Shown: positions 22,505 to 51,333 of the stretch, piece by piece
Layout of the letters: the number at the start of each line of letters is the position of its first letter
How positions within the stretch are numbered: position 1 is the first letter of the stretch
NCBI RefSeq assembly: GCF_026210795.1
Contig: NC_089445.1
Span: 4,154,001 to 4,218,000, forward strand
Length of the DNA: 64,000 bases
Reading direction: 5' to 3'
Source: Rhizophagus irregularis
Lineage: Eukaryota; Glomeromycota; Glomeromycetes; Glomerales; Glomeraceae
Translations under genes and position numbers: made by a program
Notes under the pieces: model-generated
Told to the model about the DNA's origin: nothing
Database searches by the model: none
What the model saw: the letters and a program-made list of their open reading frames with translations, nothing else

Positions 22505-22640
22505 TTTAGACTATTTTAGACTATTTTAGACTATTTTAGTCTATTGTGTAATATCAATAAATATAAATACCCTATTTGTAATCATTTTTACATTTTTTTT
22601 TCTCTCCTTTTTACATTTTTTTTCTCTCCTTTTTAATTTC
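22505..22640 (+). promoter_or_regulatory. Promoter-proximal repeats and CT-rich tract
   Basis: Four copies of a TTTTAGACTA 10-11-bp unit (22502-22545) are followed by two copies of a TTTTTACATTTTTTTTCTCT type unit (22590-22637). They end 12 bp before the recombinase ATG. Pyrimidine-rich tracts just before the start are common in fungal promoters. The role is inferred from position. Confidence 0.4.
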
Positions 22641-22648
22641 AAAATAAA

Positions 22649-24277
22649 ATGTCTAGTTTCAAAAAAGCCTCCGAATTATTAAATTCAAGTAATGATACTG
22701 TCACTATAAATGAATTAAAAGGAAGATTGAATCATTTAGAAAATAATCAACTTTCTGAAATACACAAATCATTATCAAAATCGTCTAATAAAGAAACATT
22801 TGATCGTCCTTGTATAGAAACTTTACAAAAGTATGTCTCTTCCGCAAAACCAAAAAATACTAACAAAAATACACGTTTATGGGTTTCTAGATTTGAAAGC
22901 TTTGTAAATGACACTCAACCAAACATAGATTTAATGACCCTTTATGACAAAAAAGCCATTGCAATGTTGTTATGTGAATTCATTATAGTTATTCAAACAA
23001 AAGACAAAAAGGAATACAAAGCAAACTCACTGTATAATGGTATATGTGCTATAAATCGGTTTTATCAAGAAATGTTTAAAGATAGAGAACCATTCAATAT
23101 ACATGAGGATTTTGAATTTAGAATAGTGCGTGATACATTACATACAAGAATGATAGAATTGGAAGAAATCAATAATGGTGAATATAATGGAGCTGATCCT
23201 CTTACTGATGAAGAAATGGTAAAAATCTTCGAACATCCTGATATATCAAGTAATTCACCAGATGGATTATTAAGGAGAGTCTTTTTATGGGTAGGATGTT
23301 GTACAGCACGTAGAGGGGGATCATATCATAGTATTATGGCTAGCCATTTTAAAAAACGTGATGATGGAGGATATAACATTGTGACAATTCATGATAAAAC
23401 TCACCAGGGAGGATATTATCACCAAACAAATTCTAATCAACAACCTGTTCATATTATTCCACCAGATGAACAAGGAACATATGGAGCATGTCATGACATT
23501 AGAAAATACTTGAGTTTACGGCCTAATAATGCAGAAGAAAACTTTTTTCTTCGTATTAATAAAGATATTGAAGGTACAATTTTATATGATTTCTTTCTCT
23601 ACAATATTTTTAACACAAACTAATAAATTTCAATATATTATTTAGAAAATTGGTATTCTACTTTTCATTTAGGTCGAGATAAATTATCTGGAATGTTAAA
23701 AGAAATTTGTAATATTACGGGTATTGATTGCACAAACAGAAGAATTGTAAATCATTCATTACGAAAATGTACTGCACAAAAGTTAAATGACGAAGGATTG
23801 GATTCACAAGCTATAATGAATGTAACATTGCACCGGTCCATTGCAGGATTAAATGCGTTAGTATATATTATAATATAATATTTAATTTTTTTATTTTGTC
23901 ATTAAAATTCATTTATTTTATAGATATCGAACACAAAATGAAAAGCAAAAATTGGACATCGCAAAGTTAACACTTCCAGGCATTTCAAAGGTATCTAATT
24001 AATTCTTTATTATAAATTATCATTATAATTATTAATTTTTTTTACACTTTATTTATAAAAGGATATTTCGATGCAAGAAAATTTGGAAAAATCTGCCAAA
24101 GATCTAAATACGGAACAAAGAATTGAAAATTTATCATCTCAGGAAGAGACTAAAACAGAACCATTCACTGAAATTCAAAATATCACAATTCCTTTAAAGC
24201 GTAAAGATGATTTAATTGATAATTTTCGTCTTAAGTTTGTTAAATGTAGTAATTTTACTATTAACATTACAAAATAA
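22649..24277 (+). CDS. Crypton-like tyrosine recombinase, four exons
   Basis: Exons 22649-23573, 23646-23856, 23924-23990 and 24062-24277 join in frame to 472 residues. The introns of 72, 67 and 71 bp begin GTACAA, GTTAGT and GTATCT and end in AG. All expected catalytic positions of a tyrosine recombinase are present: Arg in CTARRGGSY (about 221), Lys in HDKTHQGG (about 250), H-x-x-R in NHSLRK (345/348), His in LHRS (371) and Tyr in LNAYR (380). Residues 60-160 resemble the core-binding helical region. The C-terminal 90 residues are polar and probably disordered. The fold corresponds to the DUF3504/Crypton group, often labelled ZMYM2-like in fungi, which cuts and joins DNA through a covalent Tyr-DNA bond. 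Crypton elements lack terminal inverted repeats, so the element's ends cannot be seen. It appears intact and could be an active transposon gene or a domesticated copy. Confidence 0.85.
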
Positions 24278-27129: not shown

Positions 27130-27376
27130 TTTTTACTCCTCTTCATCTTCCCATCACTTCTTTTCATCTCCCATCGCTCCTTTCATCTCCCATCACTTCT
27201 TTTCGTCTCTCATTACTCCTTTTCGTCTCCCATCGCTCTTTTTCATCTCCAATCGCTCCTTTTCATCTCCCATCGCTCCTTTTCGTCTCCTATCACTCCT
27301 TTTCATCGCCCATCACTCCATTTTGTCTCCCATCACTCCTCTTCATCACCCATCACTCCTTTTCATCTCTAATTGT
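27130..27376. repeat. 20-bp minisatellite, about 12 copies
   Basis: Head-to-tail units of CATCTCCCATCGCTCCTTTT with substitutions and strict 20-bp spacing. Because 20 is not a multiple of 3, the 104-codon ORF across it is not a protein repeat and is unlikely to be real. It lies in the loop of the long-inverted-arm element. Confidence 0.85.
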
Positions 27377-28638: not shown

Positions 28639-29576
28639 CTTATTAATGTAATTTAATATTTTTTAATTTTATAAAAAAAAAGATCTCTAATGAAATTCTT
28701 TAAATTCTTTATTAAAAAAAAAAATTTCAAGCCAAAAATCTCGATACACTTATTATTTTCAATAAAATTATCTATTACTGTATTAAGATTTCTAAACAAA
28801 ATTCTCCATCAAAAAAATAAATTTTTTTTCAACAAATAATTCTCTAATGAAATTTTCAATCAAAAAAAAAAATATCTCGATTAAAGAAAAATTCAAAGAT
28901 TCTTACCATCTATTAAAAAAAATTCTCAAAAGAATTTATATATCAAAAAAAAAAACTCCTCTTCTATAAAAAAAAATCTCCCTGTTAAAATAGATCTATC
29001 TAAAAAAAAAATCTTACCTATTAAAAAAAAATTCTATGATGAAATTTTTATCAAAAAAAAAAAATCTCAGTGAAATCTATTAAAGAAAAATTCTTTAATG
29101 AAATTTTCTATCAAAAACAATCCTCCTATTAAAAAAAAAATTCTCTAATAAATTCTCTGTCAAAAAATACTTTCACCTATTAAAAAAAATTCCCAAAAGA
29201 AATTCTTTATCAAGGAAAACTCCCTCCTATTAAAAAAAATTCTTAATGAAATTCTCTATCAAAAAAAATCTCACTTGTTAAAAGAATTTTCTAACGAAAT
29301 TTAAGCACATACAGATAAATATCAAACACAAATATCAAGCATGAATAGGTAAAATGTCAGGCGGTGTAACATTTTGTCAATCCATGCACCCGCCATAGTT
29401 AGTCCAGCCATACAAAACATGATCGGATATACTATGATATCACAAATGATCGACAATAAATTGTGTATGACATGTATGAAATACCAATCGGAACGTTTAC
29501 TCCGAAAATTAAACTTTATTTTGACAATTTTTTTTTTAAAAAAAAAATCATCCTTTTTATTTTTTTTGCTTACAAT

Positions 29577-31199
29577 ATGACATGTTCAAAAATATTTTCA
29601 GGAGATTTACCTGAATTAACAACTGAAATTATACAATATTTTCGAAATGATTTTTCAACATTATATACATGTATTTTAGTTAACAGATTATGGTGTCGTT
29701 TAGCAATACGATTATTATGGGAAAATCCATTTTCAAATCCTACTAGACATAATGATTTTATTAATCTTTTCTTACATAATTTAACTGAAGATAATAAAAC
29801 AAAATTAAACAACGAATATGGAATTAATAATAATTTATTCCCTTCAAATACATTATTTAATTATCCTAGTTTTATTAAATGTTTAAATATTCAGAAATTT
29901 CTTTGGTCAATTAAAAAATGGGTTGCAAATATTAAAAATTTAACTGATAAACAAAGATATTTATTATCTTCACAATATATTAACCCAAATTTATTTAAAA
30001 TATTTATTAATAATGAAGTAAATTTACATACTTTTGAAGTAATATTAAATAATGAATGTTGTAATTATTTTGACCTTTCTTTTGAATTAATCCAACAAAA
30101 TCCTTATTTTATTTGTAATATTAAAAATTTTAAACTTTGTTTTGATGAAAATGTTGCAAAAATAACAAAATTTTATCCTTTTTTAAAATTTTTACATTCA
30201 AATTGTAATTCAATTTCTTCACTTAATATTAATATCAAATTATTCTTTTATAATAATAATAATTCTGATGTTGGTATTACTTTATTAAGTGAAGAACATT
30301 TACCAAAAATAATTAATTCACAAAAAAATTTAAGAAAAATTTCATTTGAAGGATGTATTAATTTTCCCTTGTATCATTCATTATTATCATTAAAAAATTC
30401 AAACTGTTCAAATACTTTAAATACCATCATTTTTCATCATATTAATTTTAAAGATATAACTAATATTTTAATTGAAGTGTTTGAACAATTAAATGTTTTG
30501 GAATCTATTCATATCATTTATTGTTCTTTAGATTCTGATTTTGTTGAAAAAATTATTAATGTCACTAAACCATTCAAATTGAAATCTTTATTTATAAGTG
30601 GTAATTTACAAATTGAACCAATAGAATCTTTGTTACAAAAATCTGGTGGTTATTTAGAAAATTTTGGTTCTGGAAGTGAATCAAATCAATTATTTAAGTT
30701 AATTATGAAATATTGTCCTAAAATTAAATATTTTGATTTATTTGATCTTGATAATTGTCATGATAATATTACTACAGCATTCAATTTAATTAAAAATATT
30801 GAAAATACTCTTAATTATCTTTCTATTGAAAGTGTTGATATTGAATTTAGTTCAATTGTTTTACAAAATTTAGGACAAATGCTTCCTTTTAAATTAGAAT
30901 ACTTAAATTTATATCTTATGTTTAATAATAAGGATTTTGAATTATTTTTAAAAAATTCTAATAATATTTTTATTAAAAAATTATCTATTAGAAATGAAAT
31001 GCAAGATGAAGATATTTTACCTTATATAAAGAAATATATTATGGAAAAGAAAAGAGTTAAATATTTGGCTGTTGAAGTTAAAAATAAAGATTTATTTTCT
31101 TTAAAAGATGAAGTAAAAGAATTTAAATTATATAATATTGAAATTCAAAATTATGATAAGTTAGCTATTTATTATTGTGATTTTATAGGAATTTATTAG
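29577..31199 (+). CDS. F-box protein with leucine-rich-like tail
   Basis: A 540-residue single-exon ORF. Residues 1-50 form an F-box: GDLPELTTEIIQYF, then TLYTCILVNRLWCRLAIRLL and the WENPF end block usual in Rhizophagus. The rest is a series of irregular leucine/isoleucine-rich stretches (for example LNVLESIHIIYCSLDS, LKSLFISGN, LEYLNLYLMF) that would form a leucine-rich-type superhelix. F-box proteins bridge Skp1-cullin ubiquitin ligases to substrates, the tail choosing the target. The ATG at 29577 is chosen over an earlier in-frame ATG at 29463 because the protein family begins with M-x-C-S-K just before the F-box. A broken paralogue lies at 49262-50952. Codon use is extremely AT-rich, like the surroundings. 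Confidence 0.88.
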   Translation: MTCSKIFSGDLPELTTEIIQYFRNDFSTLYTCILVNRLWCRLAIRLLWENPFSNPTRHNDFINLFLHNLTEDNKTKLNNEYGINNNLFPSNTLFNYPSFIKCLNIQKFLWSIKKWVANIKNLTDKQRYLLSSQYINPNLFKIFINNEVNLHTFEVILNNECCNYFDLSFELIQQNPYFICNIKNFKLCFDENVAKITKFYPFLKFLHSNCNSISSLNINIKLFFYNNNNSDVGITLLSEEHLPKIINSQKNLRKISFEGCINFPLYHSLLSLKNSNCSNTLNTIIFHHINFKDITNILIEVFEQLNVLESIHIIYCSLDSDFVEKIINVTKPFKLKSLFISGNLQIEPIESLLQKSGGYLENFGSGSESNQLFKLIMKYCPKIKYFDLFDLDNCHDNITTAFNLIKNIENTLNYLSIESVDIEFSSIVLQNLGQMLPFKLEYLNLYLMFNNKDFELFLKNSNNIFIKKLSIRNEMQDEDILPYIKKYIMEKKRVKYLAVEVKNKDLFSLKDEVKEFKLYNIEIQNYDKLAIYYCDFIGIY

Positions 31200-36552: not shown

Positions 36553-38068
36553 TTAATTTTCATCAGTTTTAATATCTAAATAATTAAATATTAAATAAAC
36601 TTAATTTCACATGAATAATTTGCAAGATTAATTCTTTCATATATCATAATACATACCTAATGACCCCAAATCCTTAATTATATAATCATTCAAATCTTCA
36701 CTAACTAGCATTTCATTTGCTTTTATACTAGCTTGTGAATCTTCACTTTCAAGAATTTCATTCAACTTTTTACTATTATTCTCATCTAAATAGATAAATT
36801 AATTTCATATAAATAATTTGCAATATTAATAAGATTAATTTTTTATATATCATAATACATACCTAATGACCCAAAATCCTTAATTATATAATCATTCAAA
36901 TTTTCACTTACTAGCGTTTCATCTACTTTCACACTAGCTTGTAAATCTTCGCTGTCAAGAATTTCATTTAATTTTTTACTAGTAAAATCAAATAAGCGAC
37001 TTGTAAAACATGCTTTAGGATGAGATTTAGTAGCAAGATTGTTATGCTTAATTGGTGTATTTATAAATTCCATAATGTTGCTTTTTAATTCTTCATCAAT
37101 ATCTTTAATTACCATTTTATAAGAACGGAAAATCCAATTCTTAATAACATCTCTCACTTCTGAAGTAGGTGGCCTTTTTAATGGATCTTCATTCCAACAT
37201 TTTTTCATCAAATTTACATAACATTGTGGAGTATTTTCAATAATTTCAGGACGTTCACCTTTACAAATACTTAAACTAAGATGAAGATCATGTGCTCTAT
37301 TATTAAATGGTGGTATTCCTGAAGTAAATTCCCACATAATCATAGAAAAACTATACATATCACTAGCTGGAGTATAAGATTTGCCTCTTAAAACTTCAGG
37401 AGCCATAAATGGTATAACACCATAAATATCATACTTTTTCAAAAACGATTTTACAGGTTGACATAATCCTAAATCACTAATATAAATTTTATCCTCATTC
37501 TCACCATAATTATGATGTAAAATATTACCATCATGAAAATCACAATGAATAAGATTTTCTTCATGTATCTTACTAAGTCCAGAAATAATTTCGTGCAACA
37601 TATGTAATTTTTGTTTCCAATTATTTTTGACTATTCTTGTTAAATTTTCTCTCAAATTACCTTTATTTGCATAATCCATTACTACCATATATTTTGAAGT
37701 ATTTGGATCTTTTGTAAATCCATAAAATTCAATAATATAATATGAACCTAAACACTTTTTATGATATTCCCACTACAATAAAAATAATAATTTATTAATA
37801 TAAATTATAAAAATAAAAAATAAAAAATAGCATACTATCAATCTATCATACTTCTTCCAAAAATTCATTTAAATTTTCATTTAAATTCTTGTGACATTTA
37901 AGAATTACTTCTTTATATCCATTATTCTTTAACCAAGTAGCTTTATATATAGTACCAAAACCTCCTTCATTAAGATATTCAACATTTTTAAATTTGTTAT
38001 AAGGAATCCATCTTAATTTTTTTTCAAGAATAAAATCATCTATAATTGTATTTCCACTTTTCCCAAAT
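36553..38068 (-). CDS. TKL-type protein kinase (3' four exons)
   Basis: Exons 38068-37852, 37772-36863, 36785-36657 and 36575-36553 join in frame to about 425 residues, with introns of 79, 77 and 81 bp. N-lobe: WIPYNKFKNVEYL, glycine loop LNEGGFGTIYKA, then VILKCHKN with the ATP-binding Lys. C-lobe: catalytic loop LIHCDFHDGNIL, DLG in ISDLGLCQP in place of DFG, and MAPEVLRGKSYTPASDMYSF with the APE block. This is the usual form of the hugely expanded Rhizophagus tyrosine-kinase-like kinases, which phosphorylate proteins. Catalytic residues are intact. The C-tail is encoded by a tandemly duplicated exon end (SKKLNEILDSEDLQ and SKKLNEILESEDSQ). The first exon listed has a splice acceptor at its 5' end and no ATG, so upstream exons must lie beyond the microexon array. 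Confidence 0.85.
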
Positions 38069-41000
38069 CTTTAAATTTAAATAATTAAAATTATATAATA
38101 GATTGTATTATAATTTACACTAAAATAATTATTACTTACTCTAAAATTTAAATAGAAATTTAATGTAATATAAGTCTTAGTTTTTTGGATAAATACATAT
38201 AATACCTATAATTTACATCTTACCAACTAAAGTAACAAGATATTTTAAATGAAAAATTTAATTAACAAATAAATATTAAATAAAATATATAACAATAGAA
38301 ATACTTACAAACTAAATCATAATATTTGTTAAATAAAGAATTTAATTAGTTTAAATTACATAAATAATAATAGAAATAAATAAATAACTTACCATCTATA
38401 CAATAATTTTTTAAATAAAGAAATTAGATAGTTTAAATTATATGTAAATATATTAAATAAATAAATAATGACTTACCAACTAAAATAAATTACAAAATAA
38501 TTTTTTAAATAAAGAAATTATATAGCTTAAATTATATGTAAATATCATAACAATAAGCAATAATAGAATTATATAAATTAATAATGACTTACCAACTAAA
38601 ATAAATTACAAAATAATTTATTAAATAAAGAAATTAGATAGTTTAAATTATATGTAAATATTATAACAATAAGCAATAATAGAATTAAATAATAACTTAC
38701 CAGCTATATTATTTAATAATTTTTTTAAATAAAGAAATTAGATAGTTTAAATTATATGTAAATATTATAACAATAAGTAATAATAGAATTAAATAAATAA
38801 CTTACCATCTATAAAATATTTTTTTAAATAAAGAAATTAGATAGTTTAAATTATATGTAAATATTATAACAATAAGCAATAATAGAATTAAATAAATAAC
38901 TTACCATCTATAAAATATTTTTTTAAATAAAGAAATTAGATAGTTTAAATTATATATAAATATTATAACAATAAGTAATAATAGAATTAAATAAATAACT
39001 TACCATCTACAAAATAATTTTTTAAATAAAGAAATTAGATAGTTTAAATAATATGTAAATATTATAATAATAAGTAATAATAGAATTAAATAAATAACTT
39101 ACACCCTATATTATTTAATAATTTTTTAAATAGTTTAAATTATATGTAAATATTATAACAATAAGCAATAATAGAATTAAATAAATAACTTACACCCTAT
39201 ATTATTTAATAATTTTTTAAATAAAGAAATTAGATAGTTTAAATTATATGTAAATATCATAACAATAAGCAATAATAGAATTAAATAAATAAATAATGAC
39301 TTACCAACTAAAATAAATTACAAAATAATTTTTAAATAAATAAATTAGCTAGTCTAAATTATATGTAAATATAATTATAACAATAAAGCAATAATAGAAT
39401 TAAATAAATAACTTACAAACTATATTATTTAATAATTTTTTAAATAAAGAAATTAGAGAGTTTAAATTATATGTAAATATATAATAATAAGCAATAATAG
39501 AATTAAATAAATAACTTACATCCTATATTATTTAATAATTTTTAAAATAATGTAAATATTATAACAATAAGCAATAATAGAATTAAATAAATAACTTACC
39601 ATCTATAAAATAATTTTTAAATAAAGAAATTAGATAATTTAAATTATATGTAAATATTATAATAATAAGCAATAATAGAATTAAATAAATAACTTACGAG
39701 CTATATTATTTAATAGTTTTTAAATAAAGAAATTGGATAGTTTAAATTATATGTAAATATTATAACAATAAGCAATAATTAAATAAATAACTTACGAGCT
39801 ATATTATTTAATAATTTTTTAAATAAAAAAATTAGTTAGTTTAAATTATATGTAAATATTATAACAATAAGCAATAATAGAATTAAATAAATAACTTACA
39901 AACTATATTATTTAATAAGTTTTTAAATAAAGAAATTAGATAGTTTAAATTATATGTAAATACTATAATAATAAGCAAATAAATAACTTACACCCTATAT
40001 TATTTAATAATTTTTTAAATAAAGAAATTAGATAGTTTAAATTATATGTAAATATTATAACAATAAGCAATAATAGTAGAATTAAATAAATAACTTACAC
40101 CCTATATTATTTAATAATTTTTTAAATAAAAAAATTAAATAGCTTAAATTATATGTAAATATTATAATAATAAGCTATAATAGAATTAAATAAATAACTT
40201 ACTCTCTACATTATTTAATAATTTTTTAAATAAAGAAATTAGATAGTTTAAATTATACATAAATATTATAATAATAAGCAATACAGAATTAAATAAATAA
40301 CTTACGAGCTATTATTTAATAAGTTTTTAAATAAAGAAATTAGATAGTTTAAATTATATGTAAATATTATAACAATAAGCAATAATAGAATTACATAAAT
40401 AACTTACACCCTATATTATTTAATAATTTTTTAAATAAAGAAATAAGATAGTTTAAATTATATGCAAATATTATAATAATAAGCAATAATAGAATTAAAT
40501 AAATAACTTACCATCTATAAAATATTTTTTTAAATAAAGAAATTAGATAGTTAAATTATATGTAAATATTATAAAATTTAATCAAATAAATAATTTACCA
40601 CCTATAAAAGAATTTTTTAAATAAAGAAATTAGATAGTTTAAATTATATGTAAATATTATAAAAATAAGTAATAATAGAATTAAACAAATAACTTACCAT
40701 CTATAAAATAATTTTTAAATAAAGAAATTAGTTAGTTTATATTATATGTAAATATTATAAATTAAATAAATAACTTACCATCTATGAAATATAAAGAAAT
40801 TAGTTAGTTTAAATTATATATAAATATTATAACAATAAGTAATAATAGAATTAAATAAATAACTTACCATCTGTAAAATAATTATTTACAAAGAAATTAG
40901 ATAGTTTAAATTATATGTAAATATTATAACAACAAGCAATAATAGAATTAAATAAATAACTTACTCCCTATATTATTTAATAATTTTTTAAATAAAGAAA

Positions 41001-41239
41001 TAAGATAGTTTAAATTATATGTAAATATTATAACAATAAGCGATAATAGAATTAAATGAATAACTTATAACTTACGATCTATTAAATAAAGAAATTAGAT
41101 AGTTGTAAATATTATAACAACAAGCAAATAATAGAATTGAATAAATAACTTACTCCCTATATTATTTAATAATTTTTTAAATAAAGAAATTAGATAGTTT
41201 AAATTATATGTAAATATTATAACAATAAGCAATAATAGA

Positions 41240-41348
41240 CCCTATGAAAAATTTTTCAGAAAAATGATCACGTGTCTGAGTTTCTTCAGAATAAAAACTA
41301 GAAAAATGATCATTTATCGGAGTTTTTTCCAGAATTTTTTTTATAGGG
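41240..41348. mobile_element. 109-bp MITE, CCCTAT ends, 3-bp AGA duplication (copy 1)
   Basis: The inverted ends CCCTATGAAAAATTTTTC and GAATTTTTTTTATAGGG are flanked by AGA at 41237-41239 and 41349-41351. Neighbouring array units give the empty site (AATAATAGAATTAAA), which shows that exactly AGA was duplicated. CCCTATAA-type ends with a 3-bp duplication are shared with the 3.07-kb element at 55673-58741. Confidence 0.88.
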
Positions 41349-42386
41349 AGAATTAAATAAATAACTTATAACTTACGATCTATTAAATAAAGAAATTAGA
41401 TAATTTAAATTATATGTAAATATTATAACAATAAGCAATAATAATAACTTACTCCCTATATTATTTAATAATTTTTAAATAAAGAAATTAGATAGTTTAA
41501 ATTATATGTAAATATTATAATAATAAGCAATAATAGAATAAATAAATAACTTACACCCTATATTATTTAATAATTTTTTAAATAAAGAAATAAGATAGTT
41601 TAAATTATATGCAAATATTATAATAATAAGCAATAATAGAATTAAATAAATAACTTACCATCTATAAAATATTTTTTTAAATAAAGAAATTAGATAGTTA
41701 AATTATATGTAAATATTATAAAATTTAATCAAATAAATAATTTACCACCTATAAAAGAATTTTTTAAATAAAGAAATTAGATAGTTTAAATTATATGTAA
41801 ATATTATAAAAATAAGTAATAATAGAATTAAACAAATAACTTACCATCTATAAAATAATTTTTAAATAAAGAAATTAGTTAGTTTATATTATATGTAAAT
41901 ATTATAAATTAAATAAATAACTTACCATCTATGAAATATAAAGAAATTAGTTAGTTTAAATTATATATAAATATTATAACAATAAGTAATAATAGAATTA
42001 AATAAATAACTTACCATCTGTAAAATAATTATTTACAAAGAAATTAGATAGTTTAAATTATATGTAAATATTATAACAACAAGCAATAATAGAATTAAAT
42101 AAATAACTTACTCCCTATATTATTTAATAATTTTTTAAATAAAGAAATAAGATAGTTTAAATTATATGTAAATATTATAACAATAAGCGATAATAGAATT
42201 AAATGAATAACTTATAACTTACGATCTATTAAATAAAGAAATTAGATAGTTGTAAATATTATAACAACAAGCAAATAATAGAATTGAATAAATAACTTAC
42301 TCCCTATATTATTTAATAATTTTTTAAATAAAGAAATTAGATAGTTTAAATTATATGTAAATATTATAACAATAAGCAATAATAGA

Positions 42387-42495
42387 CCCTATGAAAAATT
42401 TTTCAGAAAAATGATCACGTGTCTGAGTTTCTTCAGAATAAAAACTAGAAAAATGATCATTTATCGGAGTTTTTTCCAGAATTTTTTTTATAGGG
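42387..42495. mobile_element. 109-bp MITE, copy 2 (from the tandem duplication)
   Basis: Identical to 41240-41348 at an offset of 1147 bp. It therefore arose by segmental duplication, not by a second insertion. Confidence 0.88.
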
Positions 42496-44074
42496 AGAAT
42501 TAAATAAATAACTTATAACTTACGATCTATTAAATAAAGAAATTAGATAATTTAAATTATATGTAAATATTATAACAATAAGCAATAATAATAACTTACT
42601 CCCTATATTATTTAATAATTTTTAAATAAAGAAATTAGATAGTTTAAATTATATGTAAATATTATAATAATAAGCAATAATAGAATAAATAAATAACTTA
42701 CACCCTATATTATTTAATAATTTTTTAAATAAAGAAATTAGATAGTTTAAATTATATGTCAATAAGCAATAATAGAATTAAATAAATAACTTACACCCTA
42801 TATTATTTAATAATTTTTTAAATAAAGAAATTAGATAGTTTAAATTATATGTAAATATTATAACAATAAGCAATAATAGAATGAAATAAATAACTTACGA
42901 ACTATATTATTTAATAATTTTTTAAATAAAGAAATTAGATAGTTTAAATTATATGTAAATATTATAACAATAAGCAATAATAGAATTAAATAAATAACTT
43001 ACGAGCTATATTATTTAATAATTTTTTAAATAAAGAAATTAGATAGTTAAATTATATGTAAATATTAAAATAATAAGCAATAATAGAATTAAATAAATAA
43101 CTTACACCCTACATTATTTAAATAAAAAAATTATATAGTTTAAATTATATGTAAATATTATAACAATAAGCAATAATAGAATTAAATAGATAACTTACGA
43201 ACTATATTATTTAATAATTTTTTAAATGAAGATATTAGATAGTTTAAATTATATGTAAATATTATAACAATAAGCAATAATAGAATTAAATAAATAACTT
43301 ACGAGCTATATTATTTAATATATTTAAATAAAGAAATTAGATAGTTTAAATTATATGTAAATATTATAACAATAAGCAATAATAGAATTAAATAAATAAC
43401 TTACCATCTATACAATAATTTTTTAAATAAAGAAATTAGATAGTTTACATTATATGTAAATATTATAACAATAAGCAATAATAGAATTAATAAATAACTT
43501 ACCATCTATAAAATAATTTTTTAAATAAAGAAATTAGATAGTTTAAATTATGTGTAAATATTATAACAATAAGCAATAACAGAATTAAATAAATAACTTA
43601 CTCCCTATATTATTTAATAATTTTTAAATAAAGAAATTAGATAGTTTAAATTATATATAAATATTATAATAATAAGTAATAATAGAATTAAATAATAACT
43701 TACCATCTATGAAATTATTTTTTAAATAAAGAAATTAGATATTTTAAATTATATGTAAGTACAATAAGTAATAATAAAATTAAATAAATAACTTACCATC
43801 TATGAAATAATTTTTTAAATAAAAAAATTAGTTAGATTGAATTGTACAAATAATATAAATATAGATATCATATAACTTACACCCTGTAGTATTATTAATT
43901 ATTAATTAGTTATATATAAAAATAATATAAAAGTAATTACTATAAATTATATATAAATTATTTACAATCTAGTTATTTAAATTACCGTAAGAATATAATT
44001 AGTTGAATTATATAAAATATTAAACATGAATTGTTTGTAAATAAAAACTTAATATTTCAGCTTGTTTGATATAC

Positions 44075-44112
44075 CTTTAATATGTTGATCCATTACTATA
44101 TCAAAATTCTCT
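44075..44112 (-). CDS. Candidate first coding exon of the kinase gene
   Basis: On the minus strand, TTTTCAATTAG precedes a 38-nt segment that ends AAAG before GTATATC. It contains ATG at 44093-44091 (MDQHIK plus one base). ATGGATCAACATATT matches the start of the plus-strand small gene (ATGGGTCAATATATT at 34017). The downstream GTATATCAAACAAGCTG matches its GTGTATCAAACAAGCTG donor region. It leaves one base, the phase needed by the array reading that joins the kinase exon in frame. An upstream open stretch (to 44249) is probably not coding. Confidence 0.45.
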
Positions 44113-49261: not shown

Positions 49262-50952
49262 TTAATACATTTCATCTATAAGTTCATAGGCTCTAATATA
49301 TAAACAATTATATTTTTTAACTTTAATATTATATGATTCAAATTCCTTCAATTCATCTGTCATAGTAAACAAATCTTTTTTATAATTATATAAATAATTA
49401 TTATTATAATATCCTTCAATAGCTAAATATTCAGCCCTTTTCTCTTTCATAATATATTCCTTTATACATGGTAAAATGTCATTAATCAATATATTAATTC
49501 TGAATAATAATATCTTAATAAAAATATGTTTTGAATTTCTTAAAAATACTTTCAAATCATTAATTGTATTATTAATAACAAGTTCTAAATTTAAATATTC
49601 TAATCTACAAGGAAGAATATGTGCTAAATTTAATAATAATTTTGTACTAAGTTCATTTTCTTCATCATGCATAAATAAAGTATTGTAATTATGAACATCT
49701 ATAGAAAGATAATTAAGGTTTTGTACAAAATTTTTAATTAAGCTTAATACTAAACAAGAACTCTGAATATTAAATATATTTAAATCAAAAAATTTAATTT
49801 TTTCACAATAATTATTAATCAATACTAATAATTTGTGTTTTAATTCATCATTAATAAATAATTTAAATCTAATATTTTCTAAATATTTCCCAGATTTTTG
49901 AAATAATGATTGTATTAAATCAATTTGTAATTTTTAATTATCTTCACGTATCATAAACAAAGATCTTAATTTAAATGGTTTATTAATATCAATTATTTGT
50001 TGAATAAAATTAGAATTTAAAATATGACAATAAAGTATATGAATAGATTCTAAAACATTTAATTGTTCAAATGCTTTTTTTATATATGATATATTTTTAA
50101 AATTAATTCCATGAAATATAATTATTTTTAAATTATTTGAATTATTATGATTAATGATATTATATAATGGAAAACTATCATATGATGATGATGACTTACT
50201 ATATATTGGATTATTATATGCTAAAAAAAATTTTTTAAGATTTTTTTGTGAATTAATAATCTGTAATAATTGGTTTTCAATCGCCATACAATCATTATTA
50301 AAACTTTCATATTCTGAAAATTTAAAATGAAGTGATGAAATTAAATTACATTTAGAATAAAAACATTTTAAAAAATTATAATTTAAAATTTTTTCATTAA
50401 AATGAAGTTTTAAATTTTTAATATTACTAATGAATTTTGGATTTTGTAAGATTAATTCAAAAACAGAATTAAAATATTCATTATTTACATTATGAAAGGT
50501 ATATGCTATTTCAATTTCAAATGTATGTAATTTAACTCCATTTTCAATGAACACTTTAATTAATAATAAAAAAATAACTCCTGTTGAACAGGTGAATAAT
50601 TTGTTAGTTTTAATCCAATTTACAATAGTGAAACAAATATTTTGTGTATTTAAACATTTAATAAAATTGGAATAATTAAATAATGTATTTAATAAATTAT
50701 TATTAATTCCATGTTATTTAGTTGTGTTTTGTCTTTTTCATTTAATTTTTGTAAGTAAATTTCAATAAAGTGAAAGTTTTTAGGATGTTTCATTGAAAAT
50801 GGATCTTTCCACAATAATGGAATTGTCGTATTACACCATAATCTATTAACTAAAATACATGAAAGTAATGTTGGAATGTCATCCCAAAGGTATTGTATAA
50901 TATTACTTGTTAATTCAGGTAAATTCCCTAATATAAATTTTGAACATGCCAT
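49262..50952 (-). pseudogene. Broken F-box paralogue
   Basis: Paralogue of the gene at 29577-31199. It starts MACSKFILGNLPELTSNIIQ with an F-box (LLSCILVNRLWCNTTIPLLW) and ends about level with its relative (YNIKVKKYNCLYIRAYELID). Relative to the intact copy, a 4-base loss near 50712 (AACGAATATGG against AACATGG) shifts the frame. A TAA at 49936-49934 stops the middle segment between MIREDN and KLQIDLIQSLFQKSG. The rest of the frame is open and similar (FQKSGKYLEN against LQKSGGYLEN), which indicates fairly recent loss. It is complete at both ends and only two breaks are visible. Confidence 0.85.
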
Positions 50953-51333
50953 GTTGACAAATGAAGAAAGAAATGAGGAGTATTTTTATTTTAAAAAAAA
51001 AAATATCAAATTGGTCAAATTTACAAATTTATAATTTTTCGGAGCTATTTTTCCTATTGAATTAACATTTATGGTGATCCAGTCGTACATCTGTTTTTGT
51101 GGCGGTCACCTGTCGCGGTAAAAATTGGATACTATTCTATTTATAGATAACCTGAAATCATCACTTTAACCAATCAATTTACTCAATTTACAGAAAATCG
51201 CAAATGATCTTTAATATTTTTATTTTTACAAAAAATTGTTTCAAAATACTTACATTATACAGCAGTATCTTGTACGATTTAGTTGAGCGCTCAATCTATC
51301 TTGCATCGTAACGACGTAATGTATATTAAATAG

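Follow-up and report, generated by a model that had tools for sequence, protein, structure and literature searches.

Three-base exon arrays upstream of a protein kinase exon in Rhizophagus irregularis: a candidate system for splicing-assembled, hypervariable N-terminal tails

Introduction

What can a gene make of dozens of introns that are separated by three bases each? The question is raised by a stretch of 64,000 nucleotides (nt) from Rhizophagus irregularis (assembly GCF_026210795.1, contig NC_089445.1, positions 4,154,001 to 4,218,000; hereafter the window, whose own coordinates are used below). On its minus strand an initial annotation, made from the sequence alone, had noted an array of about 58 introns parted by variable triplets, and had proposed that these triplets are microexons which could give one gene many N-terminal variants without a shift of frame. 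The answer given here has genomic sequence and splice signals as the sole material for every statement on the splicing of the window gene and its relatives. Read in this way, the array forms the 5′ part of a gene from a large Rhizophagus protein kinase family, and this window gene probably encodes a kinase whose hypervariable tail, with one residue for each repeat unit, would be assembled by serial splicing.

Results

The array and the predicted window gene

From 44200 to 38000 the minus strand holds 63 words of the forms GTAAGT, GTAAAT, GTAAGA and GTAAGC, and in 58 of them an AG stands exactly five bases upstream, giving the form AG-NNN-GT. The five leftover words are two copies of TTTGTAAAT inside introns, two that overlap or sit in terminal introns, and one (38139) that is the donor after a one-base exon. 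The 58 units with three bases between AG and GT that had been counted initially were thus all recovered in this form (58/58), and at the level of splice signals the window has 58 internal exons of a few bases with lengths that are a multiple of three, as in micro-exon genes. The array (38224..43968, minus strand) is a tandem satellite in structure, with its candidate exons set in intron units of ~100 nt of the form GTAAGT ... CTAAT/CTAAC ... AG. The triplets are ATG (17), GGT (10), GGA (7), CTC (5), ATC and TTG (4 each), TTT (3), TTC and GTG (2 each), and ATT, AGA, GAT and CTG (once each). The list of values given at first (GGT, GGA, CTC, TTC, TTT, GAT, CTG) is correct within the class of units ending in AATATAG; the 17 ATG triplets are preceded by a different intron 3′ end (e.g. 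TTATTTTATAG).

Taken as a whole, the minus strand from 44.1 to 36.5 kb reads as one gene in which a start exon, the array, a one-base exon and kinase exons follow in order, and the N-terminal position first assigned to the array agrees with its place before the kinase exons. The predicted first coding exon ATGGATCAACATATTAAAG (44075..44093, minus strand) encodes MDQHIK plus one base and has the donor GTATATC; its start together with the first donor bases occurs at 24 places in the genome with 0–2 mismatches, as against one for the pattern read backwards. Kinase exon A (37852..38068, minus strand; ..FGKSGNTIIDDFILEKKLRWIPYNKFKNVEYLNEGGFGTIYKATW..) was assigned by its similarity to the kinase exon of the relatives and by Pfam on the predicted protein, and kinase exon B (36863..37772, minus strand) holds the catalytic part with the motifs HCDFHDGN, DLG and APE, read in the sequence and backed by Pfam. 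The predicted protein matches the protein kinase families PF07714 (2.1e-41) and PF00069 (9.4e-37), and its catalytic motif reads HCD where HRD is usual. As judged by eye, the predicted start MDQHIK... shows no obvious signal peptide.

The same arrangement throughout the genome

All genome-wide counts were taken from the 146.7 Mb assembly in 32 contigs. A query of two array units gave 445 matches in it, and the unit pattern AATATAG-NNN-GTAAGTTATTTATTTAATTC, with at most one mismatch, was found at 1459 places compared with none for the same pattern read backwards, which shows that the array is not due to chance. From about 35 array places of the two-unit query 20 loci of 10 kb were chosen for their arrays; 19 of the fetched loci and the window make up the parsed set of 20 genes (L030 without its 5′ end) with 652 triplets, parsed as AG-NNN-GTAAG or TAG-NNN-GTAAAT between the first exon and the one-base site. 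The order of first exon(s), 16–58 triplets, one-base exon and the same kinase exon is shared by all 20. This kinase exon, the presence of which was no selection criterion, lies 3′ on the same strand in 19/20 fetched loci, and the twentieth, L029, continues into L030, the two being one gene with 63 triplets; two neighbouring triplets of that gene are 3327 nt apart. The fetched loci hold 11–43 words GTAAGTTA/CA each, and 551/564 of these are preceded by AG-NNN-, a few words being counted twice owing to a 1000-base overlap of L029 with L030. From the lists of exon A and of the one-base site two more distant members were taken as well, and 3 kb of each contain 19 and 26 triplets.

The unit-class pattern recovers 223/652 of the parsed junctions, and extrapolation gives a genome total of about 4,300 three-base exons. 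Exon A was found at most 10 kb downstream on the same strand at 92 of the 100 unit-pattern places listed. Anchors placed in mid-intron (n = 571) were accompanied by a donor in 548 cases, by an acceptor, triplet and donor in 550, and by both in 527. In a second subfamily (L021, L022, L027, L040 and others) exons of an E/S-rich repeat (EEFEESGT...) lie 5′ of the array and likewise end in phase 1. Of the 19 genes in which exon B could be followed (all but L024), 14 have it free of stops, and in four the stop was placed by eye beyond the donor. The anatomy of the window gene and of its kinase-gene family shown by these predicted parts upholds the initial interpretation in part: the array of frame-neutral, variable triplets stands, the reading of each triplet as one codon and the argument from spacing are not supported, and the genome-wide kinase family lay outside a view confined to the window.

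A one-base exon and the reading frame

Read by eye, the first exons of both subfamilies end in phase 1, and the start of the kinase exon is A-TTT; a direct join of first exon and kinase exon shifts the frame. The putative one-base exon, TTTTAG-N-GTAAGT, was present in 20/20 parsed genes, with A in 19 and T in one, and in the window it is an A at 38140..38140 on the minus strand (TTTTAG-A-GTAAGTAA). Genome-wide the site occurs at 90 places compared with six for the backwards pattern, and in 81/90 cases exon A follows on the same strand at a distance of 52–466 nt (median 61); looked at from the other side, the one-base site was found at 81 of the 150 exon A places listed. With mismatches permitted anywhere in the pattern, GTAAGT was intact at 86/90 sites, most mismatches falling in the bases after it. 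The window gene would accordingly be one in which a single nucleotide between AG and GT is needed for the frame. Since G + 3n + A + A restores the frame of the kinase, any number of triplets would keep it, but the one-base exon is then obligatory; the frame-neutral length claimed for the triplets holds once this exon is used.

When the 652 triplets were translated in three registers, one stop appeared with each triplet as a codon (a TGA triplet in L040), one with a single base carried over, and 98 with two bases carried over, so this last register was rejected. In the register that takes the last base of one triplet and the first two of the next, the single stop in 632 codons compares with 7.2 expected by shuffling the order of the triplets, and the fraction of 2000 order shuffles with at most one stop was 0.001. 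Triplets able to complete a stop number 27, or 24 after repeated contexts were removed, and one of these follows a triplet ending in T where 6.7 would be expected from the base rate of 0.28 (P 0.004). On balance, the phase of the first exon, that of the kinase exon, the one-base exon and the avoidance of stops make codons split 1+2 across the junctions the more probable register, in disagreement with the initial assumption that triplet equals codon. The tail predicted in the split register is rich in D, R, G, Y, W and N.

Variation of triplets, splice sites and introns

The junctions had first been found by their splice signals, and the test of variability was therefore redone with junctions found by their flanks only. 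In the 73 distinct class-1 junctions obtained in this way 0/73 deviates at each of A, G, G and T, the triplet positions deviate in 49, 34 and 66%, and 55 control sites in the introns deviate in 4.6% on average (0 to 42%; one site also at 0). Among class-2 junctions 1/38 deviates at one of the four splice-core sites. On 227 edges of a minimum spanning tree that joins 399 distinct 73-mers, the triplet positions changed 28, 18 and 35 times, compared with 5.0 changes per intron site and 17 at the most variable single one. Compared with the mean of 20 matched control triplets, the triplets varied 6.2, 4.7 and 4.1 times as much at flank differences of at most 1, 2 and 3, and at thresholds 1, 2 and 3 they exceeded each of the 20; the 8.6-fold excess at threshold 0 carries a bias, since the set is restricted to distinct 73-mers. 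The constancy of the splice signals from unit to unit, noted at the outset, is thereby borne out, the splice core being more constant than the intron bodies. An alignment in which triplets vary no more than their flanks had been named as what would refute the microexon reading, and the opposite was found; with this triplet excess and a constant splice core, the array does not have the equal variability of a neutral minisatellite, in line with the initial view.

Sequence differences between the genes are large. In 14 pairs of close paralogs with exons B 85–91% identical, the predicted tails were 24–56% identical in their aligned part. Exon B of such pairs has a synonymous divergence (dS) of 4–16% (14 pairs), compared with 0–8.9% for the 240 nt before exon A (13 pairs), so introns may be changing at a somewhat lower rate than synonymous sites, and constraint on introns may account for a part of the triplet excess. 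On the whole, the variation of the triplets leans towards diversifying selection. The ratio of nonsynonymous to synonymous divergence (dN/dS) in exon B was 0.48–1.40 in the 14 closest paralog pairs (L021–L040), which is unusually high for a catalytic domain; fast evolution thus extends to the kinase.

Annotated protein models and alternative explanations

The annotated relatives are 78 protein matches, from Rhizophagus wherever an organism name is given. Before the kinase exon 7/78 have E, as a join with the base A would give, 24/78 have other residues and 28/78 lack the motif. Six of the 78, one of them from R. diaphanus, have tails of 20+ residues, mostly G/I/L/M/V/R, that resemble chains of triplets; such tails would hardly come from anything but chained triplets, whether chained by RNA evidence or by software. 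Models P0018 and P0044 were rejected as the genes of L031 and L028, there being no match of at least 97% identity over at least 60 residues, and for this reason no gene-by-gene comparison of tails could be made. As proof of splicing the annotated proteins were likewise rejected, since the models disagree.

Serial splicing of the triplets into the mRNA is likely, and several observations weigh against it or against the frame proposed for it. In 19/78 relatives SK or SN precedes the kinase exon, as expected of a five-base exon AGTAA with the triplets read as whole codons, and in at least five of the seven models with E this residue, as read, arises via retained intron sequence. The annotated models conflict on the frame; some, such as P0016, join past the array, and an in-frame bypass exists from the first exon to a TATAG inside exon A (P0046, P0052). 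A protein search with 110 residues, 65 of them start and tail, gave no match that covers more than 54%, and among the matches listed there was no intronless copy that would prove splicing. Stops are met in the split register of L037 and, three codons before the donor, in exon B of L022. Of the 564 GTAAGTTA/CA words 13 lack AG-NNN-; by eye seven of these are exons of two or four bases, which would break the frame if used, and the rest are forms with zero or six bases, lost acceptors, or words outside the array. Synonymous changes were 9.6 against 14.8 expected in the split register and 21 against 16.3 with triplet as codon; these counts do not favour the split register and are not decisive.

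Spacing is a further point on this side. It had been argued initially from the invariant three bases between introns, an argument that fails, since 11/243 class-1 junctions (4.5%) depart from 3 nt compared with 142/7925 (1.8%) pooled over 16 intron control sites. The unit pattern has 1459 three-base, five two-base and three four-base forms genome-wide. Because insertions and deletions are no more frequent at intron sites, which are at least as stable in length, the fixed spacing was rejected as proof of constraint, and the indel measure by itself is compatible with neutrality.

The strongest of the competing explanations, though an unlikely one, is that a single intron has expanded into a satellite and that the array leaves the transcript in the form of one or a few long introns, with the triplets rarely or never in the mRNA. 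The tandem structure, the wide differences of tails between close paralogs and the in-frame bypasses used by some models all suit it, and recency would explain the fixed spacing. Against it stand a single-unit splice core far more constant than the intron bodies and triplets that change 4–6 times more than introns, which is unexpected of a sequence never exposed; stop avoidance (1/24 risky neighbours) and the frameshift of a plain join from first exon to kinase exon point the same way. Less probable again is that the triplets are spliced in and read as whole codons, giving a tail rich in G, I, L, M and R, with the five-base exon AGTAA before the kinase exon. The 19/78 relatives, six with long tails, the occurrence of one stop triplet only in 652 and the slight synonymous excess speak for such a register, but first exons ending in phase 1 leave it without an in-frame start, and models P0003, P0013, P0015 and P0044 do not start with M and are named partial. 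Moreover, the donor of the five-base exon varies by gene (GTAATA, GTGTTA, GTATTA) in contrast to the intact GTAAGT of the one-base exon, which annotation programs may be unable to place. That the introns themselves are the product, as in tandem small nucleolar RNA host genes such as the 48 tandem introns encoding SNORD115 (PMC11608373, available part), with the exons as mere spacers, would fit conserved introns and variable triplets but is very improbable, as no conserved structured RNA was found in the introns (no Rfam family reached its gathering score in the window, and five array introns folded no better than shuffles, z −0.18 to 1.37) and the phases, the one-base exon and stop avoidance all speak of a reading frame.

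Other features of the gene and of the window

The C-terminal end of the window gene consists of exon C (36657..36785, minus strand), read from the sequence and from alignment segment 265–309 as a 43-residue repeat of the end of exon B, and of a last exon (36553..36575, minus strand) reading DIKTDEN and stop, like the C-termini (e.g. DIKTDEN) of some annotated relatives. Exon C is a duplicated phase-1 exon, its segment being SKKLNEILESEDSQAS...IIKDLGSLG, and several relatives carry extra copies. Inside an array intron lies an insert of ~109 nt resembling a miniature inverted-repeat transposable element, with terminal inverted repeats CCCTATAAAAAAAAT...ATTTTTCATAGGG (by eye). It is found twice, at about 42495-42387 and 41348-41240 on the minus strand, because a block of about 1147 nt has been duplicated, and the 220-nt introns that hold it have kept their splice sites. 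Elsewhere in the window there are a 20-bp minisatellite of 11.8 copies (27135-27369) and long open reading frames at 22637-23623, which we take by eye to be recombinase-like, and at 29460-31199 and 49262-50985, both presumably F-box/leucine-rich repeat-like from their appearance. A Pfam scan at 0.001 of 22637-23623, 29460-31199 and 49262-49933 gave no match.

Discussion

In the mechanism proposed here, a short start exon with one spare base at its end would be followed by tens of triplets, the one-base exon and the kinase exons. The introns would be removed one after another by recursive, intron-defined splicing, because three bases leave too little room for an exon to be defined jointly with both its neighbours, and the perfect GTAAGT donor would stand in for exon sequence. 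Every residue of the tail would be written across a junction, one microexon giving its last base and the following one its first two. Units would be gained and lost by tandem duplication while the triplets change fast, and each gene would thereby obtain a tail of its own, some 16–63 residues long, on a conserved kinase. Such a tail probably serves specific binding or recognition. More tentatively, and with the odds rather against it, this may be a new diversification system in which each satellite unit consists of an intron and of exon sequence to the length of one codon; each duplication would then add one residue, written across two units, and would never shift the frame. It would embrace about 4,300 such exons by extrapolation and some 80 or more kinase genes with private recognition tails, perhaps with a choice of isoforms.

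Known systems share single traits with this arrangement, as far as the available parts of the papers cited here describe them. The micro-exon genes (MEGs) of Schistosoma mansoni are a duplicated family with many tiny exons, mostly multiples of three, and variable products (PMC10526429). Their exons are of 3–81 bp (6–81 elsewhere in that paper) and mostly of 15 bp, with 10–20 per gene, their introns are of 0.1–5 kb and their proteins are secreted (PMC10526429). In the Rhizophagus family, in contrast, every array exon would measure 3 nt; a gene would have as many as 63 of them, set in repeat units of ~100 nt that precede a kinase. The bicycle genes of aphids have exons longer than 3 nt and, to our knowledge, no tandem intron repeats. 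They resemble the kinase family as a fast-evolving, effector-like family found by gene structure (PMC9168663). One-base exons between two introns that are required for the frame were described for APC11 in Arabidopsis (PMC4674806) and CYP621A in Fusarium (PMC12940212), each in one gene or ortholog set with RNA or construct evidence, whereas the Rhizophagus one-base exon is predicted from sequence, at 81 sites beside one kinase exon in one genome and combined with the arrays of three-base exons. In Drosophila, homothorax has an alternative microexon of 3 nt, which is a single exon with no array (PMC7392893). In the accessible portion of the open-licence literature on microexons, tandem introns, tiny exons and R. 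irregularis kinases and splicing, no description of arrays of 3-nt exons was found. If real, the series is the most extreme one of tiny exons that we know of.

Nanopore RNA was mapped in the assembly paper with a maximum intron of 3000 bases (PMC10234402). If aligners miss exons of 3 nt, mapping would be difficult for genes such as this one, with arrays of 4–6 kb; this would account for the structure having gone unnoticed. Because aligners and predictors place tiny exons poorly, the gene models of the family would be wrong at the N-terminus, should the proposed structure be true. The arrays would then be a test of how the spliceosome copes with a run of dozens of 3-nt exons and one 1-nt exon, and they would give variety to the proteins of a plant symbiont whose kinase set is very large, with 2,533 reported (PMC10234402).

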